Part shown: positions 1 to 45,958 of the stretch, piece by piece
Layout of the letters: every line of letters begins with the position of its first letter
Position numbering within the stretch: the first letter of the stretch is position 1
NCBI GenBank assembly: GCA_963691655.1
Contig: OY829326.1
Coordinates: 24,416,878-24,480,877, forward strand
Length of the DNA: 64,000 bases
Source of the DNA: Toxonevra muliebris
Lineage: Eukaryota; Arthropoda; Insecta; Diptera; Pallopteridae
Reading direction: 5' to 3'
Program-made: the position numbers and the translations under genes
Notes under the pieces: model-generated
Databases searched by the model: none
What the model was told of the DNA's origin: nothing
Seen by the model: the letters and a program-made list of their open reading frames with translations, nothing else

Positions 1-773
1 AAAGGGATTTTATTCTCTTAGCGCCAATACAAATTCAAAGAACTTTACGTTCCATTTGAATTGAAAAAGAATATTGAGAAGGATTTCCCTTTGACCTCTC
101 TCCCGTGGATATAAGATATATTTTAAAATAATTTTTATCAGGACCGAAAAATATCGGCTTGACCATAGAATCTTGGCAATCAACAGGCACCGCCTTATAT
201 CGTCATAAATGGATGTTCACCGCTTATTCCAATAGAAAAAAACATTTTTGAAAATGTTGATGTGTATTTTAGCGCAGCTATAAGATCCGCCTAGATTCGC
301 ATCCTAAACTGTTACATAGCGAGGCTCAAGAATGAGATCGTTAATGAATAGTTTTAGAATGCGGGTTTAGTTCACATAACACGGCACACTTCTTAAGTTG
401 ACATCAATACTCGATTTTCAATTTGGAAAAACCTGTGGATGTGATCTGTACTTTGGTCGTTGACCTTTGAGTATATGCAAACAAAAATGCTGCTACAGTT
501 CCCATAACCCTCCCTCGAACCTCTCCACACTCTGGGGTTTGACCTTACTTTTGATTAAAATAGATTACTTAAATACGGATAAAGATTTCGATTGAGATTG
601 CTACAATAACAACCGCTACAGCTCCCATAATCTTTTCATAAATCTTTGCAACCTCAAGCTCAGAATTCAACATTTGTAATTGCAGAGCATTCCAGCACAT
701 AAATAAATTATTTAAAATCTTTGCAAGTCTGTTGTTGTAATCGATTGGATAAGTTTAAGCGCAATATTAAAGT
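1..773. other. No gene recognised
   Basis: AT-rich sequence with no open frame, TIR or repeat that I can support. It ends at a candidate 8-bp duplication, ATTAAAGT (766-773), at the left edge of the hAT-like element. Confidence 0.5.
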
Positions 774-11734: not shown

Positions 11735-13138
11735 CCAATATGTAATAAATGTAGGGCTATTTTTGGCAAAACATGGGGCTTATCACCTTATAAAGTCTTA
11801 TGGCTTTATAAGGCTATGGTTCGACCCATCATCACCTATGCATCCATAGTCTGATGGAGCAGACTTAATGTTGACAGCGTTGGGAAAGCTATTGCCAGAC
11901 TTCAAAGGACTGTCGCCATTTACTGTACGGGATCATTTCCTACAACACCTGGTCCATCCTTGGATGCATTGCTTAACTTACCACCCCTTGACATTTTTGC
12001 TAAAGGAGAGGCTGTCAAAGCCATCTGTAGGCATAAACGCAATAGGTATTGGTATGACACTTGCTGGGATATTGGTGACATTATTGAAGGTACTGATATG
12101 GACCTAACAGTTCTATCAATGCCATCCGATACAATGCCAACAATTCCAATTTTAAAACAACGCTATACAATACAAATTCCAGAGGCCCAAACTTGGTTTT
12201 TGCCGGCCGAGAGTTGATTGTAAGCGTATTTTCACTGACGGCTCCAGAACAGAATTCGGTTCGAGTTCTGGAGTCTTAATTGAAAATGATGGAGTGCACC
12301 TTCACTTCTCTCTTGGGTTGTATGCTTCTGTTTTTCAAGCAGAAGTTTTTGCAATCATCAAGGCAATGGACCATGTTATTGATAATGGTTGCAGAGAAAG
12401 GAGTATCTGTGTATTTAGTGACAGTCAGGCTGCGCTTAAATCCTTGCTCAATCCTCTAACCACGTCTAAACTGGTTATGCATTGTAAATCCAGGCTTGAT
12501 TGTTTTGGAAAACATAATAGTCTGCTGTTAATCTTGGTTCCTGGACACTCAGGAATTTCAGAAAATGAATCTGCTGACCTTCTAGCCAGAAAGGGTTTGG
12601 AAACTGGTTTCCTGGACCCAAAACCTGTACTCTCTTTGCCGTCTACGGCCATCAATACCACCATTAATGAGTGGGTTGACTTGACCCACAATCGTAAATG
12701 GGAGGACCTGAGGGGCTTTGGACAGACAAAGACCATGTTACCTGTTATCTCGAAGCGTCTAACGGACTTTCTGTTATCACTTAACAGAAAGAGTTGTAGG
12801 CAGCTGGTGGGATTATATACAGGTAATTTCTCTTGGTGCCTTCTGTGCTTCCTGTGGTTTGGAGGAAGAATGTGAAGAGACGGCGGACCACTTTCTTAGT
12901 GTCTGCCCCGCTTTCTGCCAGATCAGAGTAAGCATATTTGGTACTGGAGTGTTGGGAGACGAACACCTGAGCTCTCTAACACCGCAGGATCTGCTAAGAT
13001 TTATTAATAAATCTGGTAGATTTAAAGAATAGTGAAAGGGAGCACAGGATATAGTACAATGGACGTAAAACTTGTCTGAGTGCTGTATTCTTGAATACTT
13101 CTTTTGTTCGTTCAAAAAAAAAAAAAAAAAAAAAAAAA
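11735..13138 (+). mobile_element. 5'-truncated LINE: RT C-terminus, RNase H, zinc knuckle, poly-A
   Basis: The readable order is the end of the reverse-transcriptase region (FGKTWGLSPYKVLWLYKAMV, about 11765), then a linker (VGKAIARLQRTVAI). RNase H follows, with its expected acidic residues visible: TDGS near 12236, FQAEV near 12337, FSDSQ near 12417 and PGHSG near 12540. A C-terminal knuckle (CASCGLEEECEETADHFLSV) starts at about 12844. There is a stop within YASIV-stop-WS near 11850 and frameshifts near 12215 and 12830, so it is dead. The 3' UTR ends in 25 A residues (13114-13138). A second 3' copy lies at 1446-1786. The element belongs to the RNase H-bearing LINE groups of insects; the clade is not resolved. 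Confidence 0.88.
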
Positions 13139-17906: not shown

Positions 17907-18377
17907 TACAATATACTATTATTTTATTATTATTTCAAGGAAGGACGACTAGAAAGTCAGGCACTGCGACCTATAAGATCTATTGTACAAAAGCCCCAAG
18001 AAATAAAGAAAGAAAGGAAGAGAGAAAGAAAGATAGATAAGAAACATACCCAAGCCGAGAATCGAACTCGGGTCTCCAGAAACAAGAGTCTGGCACTCTT
18101 CCACTAGACCACAGTGGCGATGGTAGGACCTACAGTTTAACGCCGATTCCGAACGGCTATGTGGCAATTTTTTATCAGCTCGGTGGTTTTGCCATTACCA
18201 ACCAAGGTGTGTACTTGTACACATTCTTATAATTCTCATCCACTTCATATCGATAGTGAATATAAGAAGTTTATGAGAATTAACCACCAGACCAAGACGG
18301 GAATCGAACCCGCAACCTTCTGGATGAAAGTCTAGTGCACTATCCACTAGATTATCGAGGTCGTCTACAATATACTA
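17907..18377 (-). mobile_element. Complete dimeric tRNA-derived SINE with 12-bp TSD (SINE-A)
   Basis: The TSD TACAATATACTA is perfect at 17907-17918 and 18366-18377, so the element is 17919-18365 (447 bp), read on the minus strand. First comes a tRNA-Glu-like head (18365 to about 18291) with A box TAATCTAGTGG, anticodon-loop region ACTTTCATC and B box GGTTCGATTCC. A linker of about 170 bp follows. Then a second tRNA-like unit (about 18118-18046) has A box TGGTCTAGTGG and B box GAGTTCGATTC. A (CTTT)n-rich stretch, a LINE-like tail with ACAATAGATCTTATAGGTCG, and an AATAAT-type end complete it. Polymerase III promoter boxes are expected to drive it. The tRNA parts are not functional tRNA genes. 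Confidence 0.88.
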
Positions 18378-19339: not shown

Positions 19340-19995
19340 TTGCTCACATCTAAAGGAATCCAAAATGTCTTAGGAAGGTGCTCCAAATATCTTGAGAAGT
19401 TGAAGGCATTCGGAAAGAAATGGAACCAACTTTTTTAAGACACCAGAATGTTTACGACTTACCAAATCATTGTGCTTCTAGAGGAACATCACAGCAGCAG
19501 GATTCGATGATAGCATGAGTTTTTGAAGACAATTTTATCATTACACTTAAATCAATCCAACAAAAACTAGCGCAGAAGGTCACTAATATATCCCTTAGTA
19601 TAATTCAAAGTCGTTTAAAAGAATTCCAAATTGAATTCTGAGTTACCATAACCGAACTCTTACTGACGGCAAAACAAAAAAAAAAAAATGGTAGGAATGG
19701 GCTGTCGAACTATCATGAACTGATCGAATGGGGACCGTTCAGAAAAAATGACACCTAGAATCATTTTCTCACAAACACACACACTCCCATGTACTAGACT
19801 TTCAAATAACGAACTGTTATGCAGACTAGCTACAATGGGAAAAAAACAACAACATAAGTGTATAGAACGGTAGTGGTAGTTTCTTTCAATATCTCTATTC
19901 AGTGAAGATATTTGGAATCAAATCCGTAATTCTGGGTTATGATTTCAAATATTAGTAGCTTATATAGGATATTGAAAGATTAAGAACTATCACTA

Positions 19996-20044
19996 AGATC
20001 ACTGATGAGGAATTGTGGCGGATTCCGAAACGGCCGTCTGATTT
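19996..20044 (+). ncRNA. Type I hammerhead self-cleaving ribozyme, copy 1
   Basis: All core elements are in order. Stem I is AGATCA (19996-20001) paired with TGATTT (20039-20044), with one G-U pair. The conserved box CTGATGA is at 20002-20008. Stem II is GGAAT (20009-20013) paired with ATTCC (20022-20026), closing an 8-nt loop. GAAA is at 20027-20030. Stem III is the minimal A-C/G-U stem (20030-20031 with 20036-20037) closed by GGCC. Predicted cleavage follows C20038 in GTC. A very short stem III is characteristic of hammerheads in Penelope-like elements and retrozymes, where it usually acts as a dimer. Activity is not tested here. Confidence 0.87.
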
Positions 20045-20479
20045 GCCCGTCTCTATATACATTGTTGTTGTGATGACTACATTTGTTCATTAAGCCTGTT
20101 TATATATAACTTCAAATAACGAAATTGACATGAACTTAAGTCATGACTTTGAAAATTAACCTCTAGATTTAATTTTCATAGTCTCCTAAAAAACTATCAT
20201 GAACTGATCGAATGGGGACCGTTCAGAAAAAATGACACCTAGAATCATTTTCTCACAAACACACACACTCCCATGTACTAGACTTTCAAATAACGAACTG
20301 TTATGCAGACTAGCTACAATGGGAAAAAAACAACAACATAAGTGTATAGAACGGTAGTGGTAGTTTCTTTCAATATCTCTATTCAGTGAAGATATTTGGA
20401 ATCAAATCCGTAATTCTGGGTTATGATTTCAAATATTAGTAGCTTATATAGGATATTGAAAGATTAAGAACTATCACTA

Positions 20480-20528
20480 AGATCACTGATGAGGAATTGT
20501 GGCGGATTCCGAAACGGCCGTCTGATTT
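20480..20528 (+). ncRNA. Type I hammerhead self-cleaving ribozyme, copy 2
   Basis: This is an exact second copy, 484 bp downstream, with CTGATGA at 20486-20492, GAAA at 20511-20514 and predicted cleavage after C20522. A transcript spanning both copies would be expected to release a 484-nt linear RNA (positions 20039-20522) with ends suited to circularisation, as described for retrozyme RNAs. Confidence 0.87.
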
Positions 20529-21330
20529 GCCCGTCTCTATATACATTGTTGTTGTGATGACTACATTTGTTCATTAAGCCTGTTTATATATAACTTCAAA
20601 TAACGAAATTGACATGAACTTAAGTCATGACTTTGAAAATTAACCTCTAGATTTAATTTTCATAGTCTCCTAAAAAACTATCATATGGATTATGATTGGA
20701 GCGATGTGGCCTTTACAGACGAATCTTTTTTATGAATGGCAGGTACCATAAAACGTGCATTGTCCATTAAGGGCAGTAAGATGGTTCTGAGATTAGTGAA
20801 GCATCGACGAAAAGCTCATGTTTGGAGATGCTTTTGAAAACAGAGTTAAGACAGGATAATCATGTTTCCGAGAAATTTGGATATCTAGTACATAATCCAT
20901 TTATATCAGCATAGACTCCTATCTGCTGCCAATAACCGGTTTGTAAGAGGAAATCGAAATTGAGTGCTTTAAGAGAGCAGGACTCTAAACATCAAATTCA
21001 CTTATGCAGTAAGTGAAAAGAGGATAATTGGATAAGAATGCGTTTCTCCGTCTTCAGATGCTAAGCACATTGAAAATTTTTCAGCAATTATTAAGCTTAA
21101 AATGAGTAGAAAAAATGCTAAGAGAATTGCGCAATTGAAACGACAGATTAAGTTAAAATGGCGGGGCTTGCCGCAATCGTACGCCGAAAAGCTAGAGATA
21201 ATATGACCTGGCGTTACCACGAAATTACTCAAAATTACGCTCTTGTTGAAAAGACTGTATTTGGTTGAATAAATTTTGAGATGCGGGGGTGGTATCTGGT
21301 TGAATTTGGTTTGTAAGGAGTTAAATGACC

Positions 21331-27015: not shown

Positions 27016-29459
<2,444 letters not shown>

Positions 29460-34413: not shown

Positions 34414-36968
34414 GAATAATTACACAGGGCGACATGAAAATTATGCAGGGGTTCTGACCCATACAATTTCCTGTCAAATTACATTAATTTTCTTTTCAAT
34501 CAATTTGTACCTCTTAAACACAAAATAGTCAAGCACAAAGACACGCCATGGTTCAACTCCAACATAAAGAAATTGATTTTAATTCGAAATCGGGTATATA
34601 TGAGATGGAAGCGGTATAAAACTCCATTTTAAAGTTACTAGATACGTGGTAAACAAAGCCATCAAACTTGCAAAAACTAGTTATTATAAACAGAAATTCT
34701 GTAACGTCATAGATTCTAATCAAACTTGGAAACACATCAAAGATATTGGGTTGGGTAAAAGTACGGTACATGTGTACATAAGTTAAATTCCAAGTTCGTT
34801 AATTCTTCAGTTCCAGATGTAAATAATTGTTGTGATCATTATAGTAATCGTGTAAATGTTACAGACAGCCCTTTTGGATTTGTTCGTGTTGATGAGTGTG
34901 ATGTCGTTCAAGCCATGCTTTCTGTTAAATCGAATGCCGCTGGTTTCGACGGAATTCATCCCGTTTTCCTTAAAATTATATTACCAAAAAATCTTACCGG
35001 ATTTGACTCATTTATTTAATACAATTTTGACTACTTCCCATTTTCCTAGCTGTTGGAAAATTGCAAAAATAATTCCTGTTAATAATATTCTGCCATTCTT
35101 ATCTAAAGGTTTTGAATGAATTGTTTACAAACAAATTTGTTCGTATATTTATGAAAATAAACTCATAACTGATAGACAATCCGGTTTCAGACCTAAAAGA
35201 AGCTGCATAACAGCGCTTTTGGATGTATCGGAGGCATTAGGACTGGATAATAACAAGATTACTTTTTTGACTCTTCTTGATCATTCGAAGGCTTTCGATT
35301 TAGTTGATCACAACCTCCTGTGTCTCAAGTTAGAAAACTTGTTTAATTTCTCTAGTCATGCAAAAAATCTAATCAAGACGTACCTTAGTGACAGAATACA
35401 AGCAGTCAATGTTGTTAAAAGTTGTTATCCTAATTCTATTAGTTCTTGTATTCGCGATCTAAATTCTGATCAGTGGGTGTCCATGAATGGCTTATGTTTG
35501 AGCCCCAGTTAATCTAAATGTATTGTTATTAGTAGAAAATCAATTGATTTAAGTAACTTTAGTGCAATTAAGCTGAAAATATCTGAAATAAAATATGTAG
35601 ACGCAGCTAAACATCTTGGTGTTACTTTCAACAGGACATTGTCCTAGAAGGACCACATCTATAGTACGATAGGTAAAGTATATGGAATGCTCCGTGCACT
35701 TTGGGCAACCCAGTACTTTATCCCTGAAAATATTCGACTGCTTATTACTAAAACGTATCTCATACCTACTCTTATGTATAGTTGTGAAATTTATGGACAG
35801 TGAATGTAGAAATAAGTTAAATGTTCTTTACAACAACATTGCCCGATATTCGTACGGGTTAAAACGATTTGACCATATATCAGCTTACGCAACGCAAATT
35901 TTTTCTGTCTCCTTTAACGATTTACTTGAAATAAGATCATTTGCAGCTTTGCATAAAATCATTTATACAAAGAAACCAGCATCACTATATAACAGGCTTC
36001 AATTTACACGCTCATCGCGAACCGGCCAGTTGATACATGTAAAATATCGATTTCTCATGCCTGAACGTCAGTTTTTGAAGTGAAACTTCTTTTCTCTTGT
36101 CCTAGAGTAAAACCAACCGGATGTGACGTCGCGCGTAAGTTTGCAATGCGACATAATTTTGTCGAGCAATGTGCATGAGGGGCTAAATACCAATATTCCG
36201 TAGCTGAATTCATGAGCAAACTATATAATAAACGATTCATAAATAGTTTTAATTCAATATATCATATTAATTACACACACACACGCCTATGGCAGAAAGA
36301 ACAATATGTAGCGTCGCCATCTTAAAGTTTATGACAGTTATACATTTCACATACAGATGGCGCAAATATCCAAAGAATTACATGAAGATGTCGCACACAA
36401 AAAGAGTTCGTCTACAATTGTCATCGAAAATTACCGGTACAGAGTTGCAATTTTTGTTCTAGCATTAATCCCAAAAAAGCAAATGAAATTAAAAAACACA
36501 AGCCAATGAATTAAAAAATTTAGCGATTGAAACATTTCATTTGCTTGTGTTTCGTTTAGTTCACAAGAAGTTTCACTTCTGCCTTGTGTTCGTTAATGCA
36601 CAATTTAGTTTTTTGTCAACACAACTCGTCTTTGGAACTCCCTTCCGATTAGGATAAGTCTAATAGCTAATGCACTGCAATTTAAAAACGAATTATTCAT
36701 ATTTTATAAGCATGCCTAATTAATTTTTTGCGTATATTTTTGTTTTTCCTCCCCCTTCAAGAGTATGTATGTAAACTCATAACTTATATTATCAATTCAG
36801 AGTATATTTTATTATCTCTTTACATTTTTAATTTTTATCTTATATCTAAGCTTATATTTTATTGTTATTGACAAATTGTGACTAGCACTATAAAATAAAA
36901 TATTTAATATTTAATACTTGTGCTAGGATTAAGTTTTAATTACAAATAAAATAAAAATAAATAAAATA
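34414..36968 (+). mobile_element. LINE-B: decayed RT-bearing LINE inserted in LINE-A
   Basis: A Jockey/CR1-type RT region is broken by frameshifts. Readable parts are HKDTPWFNSNIKKLILIRNR (about 34530), SNAAGFDGIHPVFLKI (34930), DRQSGFRPKRSCITALLDVS (35170) and FLTLLDHSKAFDLVDHNLL (35265). YVDAAKHLGVTFNRTLS comes at about 35600. The block that should carry the YADD catalytic motif is missing between about 35435 and 35490, an internal deletion. LWNSLPIRISLIANALQFKN at 36630 marks the C-terminus. About 350 bp at 36262-36610 are foreign to the frame. The tail is AAATAAAATA-rich. Confidence 0.78.
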
Positions 36969-44165: not shown

Positions 44166-45958
44166 CATCATCTGTCCAACGAATTACGAACTATGGAATT
44201 TTTTTATAATATGCCATTTTACGATCAGGTTTTCTATTTAAAAGACAATGCAGAAGCCTTTTCTAATATATCAAATATCTAGAAAATCGTTTCAAAATTT
44301 AATTAGGTCCCCTACTTTTTGAATAATGGTTCAAAACCAACGAAGCTATTGATTTTATTCATTCGTTCTTAAAGTCTTAGCGATTTTACTCGAAAATTAT
44401 TGCAAAAAATGGCGAAAATTTATAATTTGCGAAACTTGCTAAAGATTTTGACAAACGTGAGTAAAAAGATTTGGATTTTAGTTATATGTAATTTTACCCA
44501 AAACATTGGTTTGTTTTCGTATTGAAGTTTTTTTTAGAAATGGCTCGAAATGGCGAAAAAATGACATACAGGTGGAGAAGAAGAAGCAAGTTGCGACTCT
44601 TCTGAAAGAGAGAAGCTCTAGATATTCCAAAATAGGCCAAATTGGAATTTCAAAAACAACGGTGGCTGATATCGCGAAAAAGTTCAATAACTCATCTGAT
44701 GAGATGACGACTTTTTACAATGATCGGCAAAATTGCACGGGCAAGCGGATAACTACCTTGAGAGAAGATCTCTTAATTGTGAGGAAAGCATTGGAAGTTC
44801 GAGCTGCAATACCACAGAATATTTCAGAAGAGAGAGAGAGAGACTCTGGTGTTGATATATGGCTTCATACACTGCGTAGGCGATTTTATGAAAATGCTTT
44901 AATATATAGGAGGGCAATTTAAAAGCCGAAATTAACGAATTTAAGGCGGCGATGGCGCTTTTTGTCTGCTCAACTGCATAAGGATTATAATGTAAATTAT
45001 TGGAACAATTTCGGTTTTTTTTAAATAAATTTTTGGGCTTTTTATATTTGAAAGAAAGAACACCATTAAATTTTAGCTTTCTAATTTTTTTCGTAGATCA
45101 TCTTTAGCGACGAATGCCGTCTGGAGGCCGAGACTGAGATCGAAAGATATGTATCGAGAAGGATGGGGGAACGGTTTTCTAGCCACTATATCCTTCCTAT
45201 AATCAATCATTTACCTGCAGTTTTGGTTTGGTGCTTCATTTCCAGCGAAGAACCTGACCCTATACAGTTCGTTGAGGGTGCCATGCACTCTGGACAGTAT
45301 ATTGCTGTTCTAGAAAATGTTTTGGTACAACATCCAGAACACCTGCAGCTTCTGCCAGAAGAATACACATTTATGCAAGATGGTGCGCCTTGCCACACAT
45401 CCAGGGCCAGTATTAAATGTTTAAATTCATTGAATTTAAAGGTGCTTCCGTGGCCTGGCAATTCTCTGGACCTTAACCGCATAGAATATTGCTGGACTTA
45501 TCGTAAATGAAAGGTCTATCAACGTAGAAATATCAGAGTTGCAGATCTAAAAGATAACATTGAAGACGTGTGGGCAAATGGACTTAGAGCAATGATAGAG
45601 AATTGTATTTGAAGCATGTCTGCTTTAATAAAGGTTGTTCTGAAGAATAGGGGTGGGGTAACAAAATATTGAAAATATGCAAAACGTTTAGTAAGACAAA
45701 TAAATTACATGTTTTGATGAACAATTAAAGTGCAATTTTGTTAGGTTAGGTTAGGTTAGGTTGGAGTGGCTGTCGAGAGACACACTTAGGCCTGAACGGC
45801 CCATTGTGATACCACATAGTTGGACCTACAGTTTAACGCCGATTCCGAACGGCGGTGCAATTTTGTTAATTTAGACACAATTCTTTTTTTTTTTATTACT
45901 ACTCAAAGTTAAAATATTGCATTTTTTTCATCGTTCGTAATTCGTTAGACAGATACTG
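44166..45958 (+). mobile_element. Tc1-like transposon, complete ends, decayed DD34E transposase
   Basis: TA flanks both ends (44164-44165, 45959-45960). The left end starts CATCATCTGTCC and the right end reverse-complements to CAGTATCTGTCT, then both share AACGAATTACGAAC. An N-terminal DNA-binding part (SKTTVADIAKKFN) is open in 44506-44922. The catalytic part has IFSDECR (about 45105), FMQDGAPCHTS (45375) and LDLNRIEYCW (45470). There are 34 residues between the second Asp and the Glu, the Tc1 DD34E spacing. The C-terminus is KNRGGVTKY. In-frame stops (RRAI-stop, TYRK-stop) kill it. About 86 bp between YWNN and IIFSDECR is non-coding and ends TTTTTTTCGTAG. A SINE fragment disrupts 45744-45854. 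Confidence 0.88.
45744..45854 (-). mobile_element. 5'-truncated SINE-B fragment with (TTAGG)-like tail and 14-bp TSD
   Basis: The TSD GTGCAATTTTGTTA is perfect at 45730-45743 and 45855-45868. Read on the minus strand it starts CGCCGTTCGGAATCGGCG, continues through the SINE-B tail module and ends in four AACCT repeats. On the + strand these look like (TTAGG)n but they are the SINE's own tail. It lies inside the 3' end of the Tc1-like element. Confidence 0.85.

Follow-up and report, generated by a model that had tools for sequence, protein, structure and literature searches.

Two hammerhead motifs stand in tandem in the window, by which we mean the whole 64,000-nt stretch of Toxonevra muliebris DNA analysed here. 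To what kind of element do they belong, and by which enzyme was this element inserted? Penelope-like elements (PLEs) have been proposed as partners of retrozymes on the basis of co-occurrence and shared hammerheads (PMC7761336, PMC7229834), and section 9 of PMC7761336 states that the repeats show no motif helping to deduce the partner. Parts of each cited paper are the source of what is said here about published work.

Results

Two type I hammerhead motifs in a 484-bp tandem array

An earlier note on this DNA had claimed two complete hammerhead cores in a 484-bp tandem, and the letters are as claimed (Table 1). In motif 1, CTGATGA (20002-20008) is followed by stem II (GGAAT/ATTCC), GAAA (20027-20030) and then GTC. 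Stem III consists of an A-U and a C-G pair and is closed by GGCC, while stem I has six pairs including one G-U. Both motifs are identical and are spaced 484 bp apart. Both strands of the window were scanned for the core together with a stem II of at least 4 pairs, a stem III and a stem I of at least 5 pairs. Exactly these two motifs were found, and 150 dinucleotide shuffles yielded none. The tandem spacing was confirmed by a repeat period of 484 with 2.0 copies and 100% matches over 977 bp, or about 2.02 units when mapped. Positions within the unit are given below as phases (ph), ph 1 being 20039, the first base 3' of the predicted hammerhead cut.

The covariance search that the earlier note had suggested as a check did not match the hammerheads: Rfam reported none in the window at the gathering score and none at E ≤ 1 on 19600-20800. 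The RF00163 profile gave 0 matches in the genome of this species, with positive controls equally silent. Moreover, when folded in isolation, the 61 nt have a minimum-energy structure other than the catalytic one (z 0.73). Since Rfam is silent and the isolated fold is non-catalytic, the ribozyme is called from its agreement with the core and helices and not from a model score. The linear 484 nt fold far below shuffles in energy (z -8.2), and the same sequence treated as a circle has a predicted fold of -130.6 kcal/mol. No stop-to-stop open reading frame (ORF) of at least 100 aa was found in the array.

Table 1. Positions in the window of the hammerhead motifs, the array and the features of the unit
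Feature	Position	Strand	Remarks
Type I hammerhead motif 1	19996-20044	+	predicted cut after 20038; sequence and structural scan
Type I hammerhead motif 2	20480-20528	+	predicted cut after 20522; sequence and structural scan
Retrozyme array, 2.02 units of 484 bp	19708-20684	+	ph 154 to ph 162
Monomer predicted for release and circularisation, 484 nt	20039-20522	+	inferred
Possible stem GTTCAT/ATGAAC enclosing a loop with AAGCCTG and site B	20085-20135	+	fold shows the GTTCA/TGAAC part
Stem arms	GTTCAT 20085-20090, ATGAAC 20130-20135	+	AAGCCTG 20092-20098, ph 54-60
Site B, ph 73-89	20111-20127	+	3'-end cluster, at 3' edge of predicted single-stranded loop; repeated at 20595-20611
39-nt hairpin between stem-loop and site A	20145-20183	+	predicted fold
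Site A, ph 155-169	20193-20207	+	other 3'-end cluster, at 3' edge of A-rich unpaired stretch

The array seems to sit within a decayed, transposase-like stretch (19480-21300), possibly a Tc1/mariner copy; on the flank to the right of the array, read through stops, Pfam gave no match. Both array ends have the 9-mer AACTATCAT, which site A contains as well; target DNA and retrozyme RNA may thus have shared 9 bases at this insertion. Elsewhere, the window contains a DDE_3 transposase-type fragment (45097-45507, E 1.1e-10) and Gly-X-Y repeat frames of a collagen-like gene (28142-29373). It also has a tRNA match on the minus strand (18047-18118) that scores 33.1 bits, the gathering score being 29; ARAGORN lists none there.

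The array belongs to a young, dispersed family

The 491-Mb genome was searched with the unit, which gave at least 159 matches, the best 40 of 1676 candidates being scored. At least 16 full matches, counted among the same best 40 and including the window copy, are free of any difference. The further tandem arrays for which the earlier note had proposed a search do exist. We mapped the 40 loci with a full unit match, selected from the 1676 first-look candidates, and their arrays comprise 1.28-4.67 units (median 2.10), with unit lengths of 484 and 486 bp. Divergence among copies is 0.27% in the hammerhead and 0.39% elsewhere. Of the 111 unit copies read, 109 have an intact hammerhead, as expected in the earlier note for a conserved core; because the copies are so alike, this point is weakly informative and says little about selection. 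The array in the window represents one member of a new metazoan non-LTR retrozyme family, which is young and dispersed.

Insert ends fall into two clusters

Sense 3' ends lie in two clusters at all 40 loci, 19 of them at site B (ph 56-89) and 21 at site A (ph 155-169). Within the B cluster, 17 of the 19 ends are at ph 73-89, with outliers at ph 56 and ph 64. The array in the window itself terminates in its second copy of site A, at 20684 (ph 162). By comparison, the 5' ends of the 40 loci are scattered over the unit (KS p 0.58). A second set consisted of 20 copies picked by the ph-1 pattern, in 2 of which the end was not reached. Here, 17 of the 18 readable ends are at A or B (12 at ph 159-165 and 5 at ph 76-87), and one copy terminates at ph 127, outside both sites. 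In the predicted circle fold, three stretches stand out as the most unpaired, and A and B lie at the 3' edges of two of these; the commonest end positions (about ph 81 and 161) are largely paired in that fold.

Fourteen of the 40 loci contain inverted pieces. After exclusion of L019 and L044, which border runs of N, every complete insert with an inverted second piece has one end at A and the other at B (12/12), in both orders (0.5^12 = 2.4e-4).

Target site duplications exceeded the 99% level of a mismatched-flank null at 20 of the 40 loci and were below it at the other 20. Sixteen duplications are exact, with a range of 8-14 bp and a median of 12 bp. In the nine inverted inserts the duplication begins A-rich (75%) and finishes T-rich (78%), so that both primer 3' ends would be T-rich. 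In the eleven simple inserts T makes up 36% of the duplication end against a window background of 34%. The difference in T-rich ends between inverted and simple inserts gave a Fisher value of 2.8e-4, counted on bases, which are not independent within a site. The retrozyme-like reading of the earlier note is upheld by the dispersed tandem type I hammerhead units, the target duplications and the lack of an ORF of at least 100 aa.

Tandem units in uniform arrays would also be expected of a common satellite, propagated through unequal exchange or extrachromosomal DNA circles. However, each of the 40 mapped loci holds fewer than five units, in contrast to the long arrays at few places that mark a satellite. 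Together with target duplications in half of the loci, fixed 3' ends and inverted pieces, this makes a satellite origin hardly credible.

PLEs of the same genome have a similar insert-end layout

A GIY-YIG search led to PLEs in this genome, in which both the reverse transcriptase (RT) and the GIY-YIG domain were identified. The RT search gave at least 151 matches (150 of 179 candidates scored), and among the best 120 of 721 relatives of the PLE protein, all with a species given are dipteran. The pLTRs of these elements contain minimal hammerhead motifs, and we counted the end positions from each PLE's own hammerhead cut. Family 1 ends at +80..88 (7 loci) and +114..117 (4 loci, one of them an inverted piece), and family 2 at +74..85 and +111..124. 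In a genome-wide list for family 2 (best 40 of 446, which favours the longer form), the end falls at +110..124 in 35 rows and at +76..80 in three. Some PLE matches terminate elsewhere, namely L077 (+52), L075 (+69), L061 (-22) and L051 (-7), and the match of L064 breaks at +75 through divergence. Three more divergent PLE loci were set aside with an unrecognisable start region. At L081, a locus of a third PLE family, positions 421-620 contain CTGAAGA..GAAATATT, which resembles a hammerhead, and a GGCCTT/GAGGCC stem-loop with AGCTCG is predicted there.

Inverted PLE inserts with both ends in view have a different site at each end in five of seven cases. These are L067, L069 with L105, L071 and L106 in family 2, and L057 (+116/+84) in family 1. 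The rule is broken by L058, with one end at +80 and an inverted piece that reaches -54, and by L055, in which the inverted piece is a 101-bp fold-back of ORF sequence. Two loci were left out of this count: the match of L070 reaches the locus end, and the main 3' end of L063 is not in view. Duplications of 13 bp running from A to T flank L067 and L071 and, as judged by eye, L057; at L069 no target duplication was seen. Among ten truncated PLE loci, four have duplications of 7-11 bp, and in six a duplication was not found.

This layout agrees with what has been published on PLEs. A PLE protein is reported to cleave both strands of AT-rich DNA and to initiate at two neighbouring internal sites, and the stretch between these is the optional Penelope tail (PMC11167929). 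There, the hammerhead cuts 26 nt into the ORF and the main start lies at 111-118 nt, from which we derived a start at about +85..92 after the cut. Inverted pLTRs, with the tail optional on one of them, and duplications of 8-10 bp have been described as well (PMC3846280). Poseidon of Anolis (PMC11167929), Penelope of Adineta (PMC3846280) and the PLEs of this genome share with the retrozyme a hammerhead upstream of two internal starts. They also share the AT-rich target and the inverted piece at the 5' side, and both strands prime in vitro in the Anolis system (PMC11167929).

The two kinds of element differ in three respects. Unlike PLEs, the retrozyme has no RT/GIY-YIG ORF; its end sites are about 80 nt apart, as against 30-40 nt in PLEs; and its hammerhead is fuller, with a 2-pair stem III. 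Nevertheless, the insertion footprint, comprising two end sites, one per end, and duplications of 12-13 bp, ties the retrozyme to the PLE machinery. Since the layout of the insert ends is much like that of PLEs of the same genome, the PLE enzyme likely spreads the retrozyme.

Duplications of about 12 bp with an A-rich start, inverted 5' pieces and 5' truncation are all compatible with insertion by a LINE. A non-LTR element with an APE-type endonuclease might accordingly move the retrozyme by target-primed reverse transcription with L1-like twin priming. The window itself contains fragments of RNase H and RVT_1 type (12156-12872 and 35120-35509) that probably derive from LINE-like elements. Yet the insert ends of the mapped loci lack a consistent poly(A) tail, and the two clusters of ends are internal, one at each insert end in 12/12. 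The same rule holds in 5/7 inverted PLE inserts, the comparison being with PLE inserts, three of which have 13-bp duplications. The distance of site B from the hammerhead is likewise close to that of the PLE end site. We therefore regard mobilisation by a LINE as clearly unlikely and that by the PLE protein as the better reading.

Array units are uniform

Arrays mixing the 484 and the 486 form were not found among the 26 arrays with at least two scored units (0/26). Among substitutions, 15 are fixed in all covering units of their array, as against 8 that each occur in a single unit. Variants fixed in several arrays are never partial, as at ph 381 (five arrays), ph 17 (two) and ph 280 (two). 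For this count the 2-bp insert was scored by its exact letters, substitutions only were considered, and 20 nt were trimmed per array end. An untrimmed first count had given 15 fixed against 147 partial cases, most of which we judged to be the 2-bp insert placed in two ways by the aligner, gaps and array-end bases. In L029, one unit has a 19-nt deletion. Going by these sequences, the uniformity fits several rounds of copying on one monomer circle. The main alternative source of it could be amplification after insertion.

Five inserts extend precisely from ph 1 to site A, and four of the 12 inverted pieces terminate within ph 1-5, for which a uniform distribution gives a chance of 5e-6. Both observations would fit run-off of the cDNA at the predicted 5' end made by the hammerhead, which we treat as a lead since the 20 copies were picked by their ph-1 pattern. 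Counting 51 pattern matches as 51 ph-1 ends was abandoned: of the 20 fetched, 8 have real ph-1 ends, and the other 12 comprise 9 arrays with a changed last hammerhead base, 2 deletions and one 5-nt duplication. Five solo inserts (within L085-L104) extend from ph 1 to ph 161-165; they have no complete hammerhead and are SINE-like.

The template might instead be the uncut multimeric transcript of an array, with no circle involved and the hammerhead irrelevant to transposition. In line with this, hammerhead mutants left PLE insertion in vitro unaffected (PMC11167929), and PLE inserts follow the one-per-end rule although PLE RNA is not known as circular. We had taken the pairing of one A with one B as proof of a monomer circle, and dropped this argument because PLEs largely follow the same rule. 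What speaks against an uncut template is the variants common to several arrays that are fixed in every covering unit, the lack of mixing of 484 and 486 forms, and the ends at ph 1 of both the five inserts and the inverted pieces. On balance we consider an uncut template rather unlikely and prefer a monomer circle.

Sequence and predicted fold of the start region

The earlier note had offered a Penelope-derived unit as the other possibility. The insertion footprint is indeed PLE-like; the unit, for its part, holds no Penelope protein and no clear match to PLE sequence. When the unit was compared by BLASTN with 30 PLE loci, the matches were all short and at chance level. Local alignment of the region after the hammerhead gave p 0.013 for family 2, 0.75 for family 1 and 0.52 for family 3 (1000 shuffles each, uncorrected). 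Primary-sequence likeness between retrozyme and PLEs is thus weak.

In predicted folds of PLE families 1 and 2 and of the retrozyme, AAGCCTG or AAGCCCG lies at the 5' side of the loop containing the first end site. AAGCCTG is at +53 in family 2 and at +54 in the retrozyme, and AAGCCCG mostly at +58 in family 1. We propose that the retrozyme stem-loop of Table 1 may correspond to the GACCAA/TTGGTC stem-loop of PLEs, in which AAGCCYG is found at +53..58. AAGCCTG itself was rejected as an invariant RT-binding motif: in the second retrozyme set (L085-L104), 11 of 17 readable copies have AACCTG, with G56 missing. Given the weak sequence likeness and the variability of this motif among retrozyme copies, we based the link to PLEs on the footprint and not on homology.

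Site A is 155-169 nt from the cut, compared with 111-124 nt for the second PLE site. Equating the two sites requires that the 39-nt hairpin between the stem-loop and site A be an insertion. Such an insertion would account for the larger A-B spacing of the retrozyme, and no counterpart of the hairpin was present in the PLE regions folded.

Discussion

We conclude that the family is a non-autonomous retrozyme with predicted RNA circles, likely mobilised by a PLE protein through twin-primed rolling-circle reverse transcription, and assign a probability of about 0.75 to this reading. Self-cleavage of the retrozyme, its circles and the action of the PLE protein on its RNA are what we infer from the genomic copies. 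Transcripts of an array would be cut by the predicted hammerheads into 484-nt RNAs, which are probably circularised. The PLE enzyme of the same genome would nick both target strands, and the T-rich target ends would pair with the A-rich stretches of sites A and B on a single RNA, or be positioned there. The cDNA started at one site would then make repeated rounds of the circle, giving up to 4.67 units. The other strand would sometimes prime at the other site and give rise to an inverted piece, and certain cDNAs seem to have ended by run-off at ph 1, the 5' end that the hammerhead would make.

The family closely resembles the metazoan non-LTR retrozymes of Acropora, Mytilus and axolotl (PMC7229834). 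They have the same short tandem type I hammerhead repeats without a protein, the same duplications of more than 4 bp, strongly folded RNA and PLEs in the genome. In our case circular RNA is predicted, and the unit of 484 or 486 bp compares with about 170-400 nt in those retrozymes. The insert ends, the two-site rule and the array uniformity were mapped here; in the sections of PMC7229834 that we cite, they are not described. Plant LTR retrozymes are likewise non-autonomous elements bounded by hammerheads, for which an RNA circle model has been put forward (PMC4918200). In these elements the hammerheads are of type III, LTRs and PBS/PPT are present and the duplications measure 4 bp (as summarised in PMC7229834), whereas the hammerhead here is of type I and the duplications are longer.

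What is new here, besides the family, is how the retrozyme inserts, as read from its insert ends. Among the titles and abstract openings listed by searches of open-licence PMC papers, none describes mapped insert ends of retrozymes. The insert ends are a footprint common to the PLEs of the same genome and to a PLE protein in vitro, and the uniformity of units within an array provides genomic evidence that a monomer circle was copied. The footprint thus speaks to the question of the enzyme by which animal retrozymes are moved. We lean towards the view that animal retrozymes are parasites of PLEs, carrying a PLE-type start module by means of which the enzyme would seat both nicked target ends on one circle, one per loop, with reverse transcription then proceeding around it. 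This module would consist of the hammerhead, the stem-loop and the two loops A and B.
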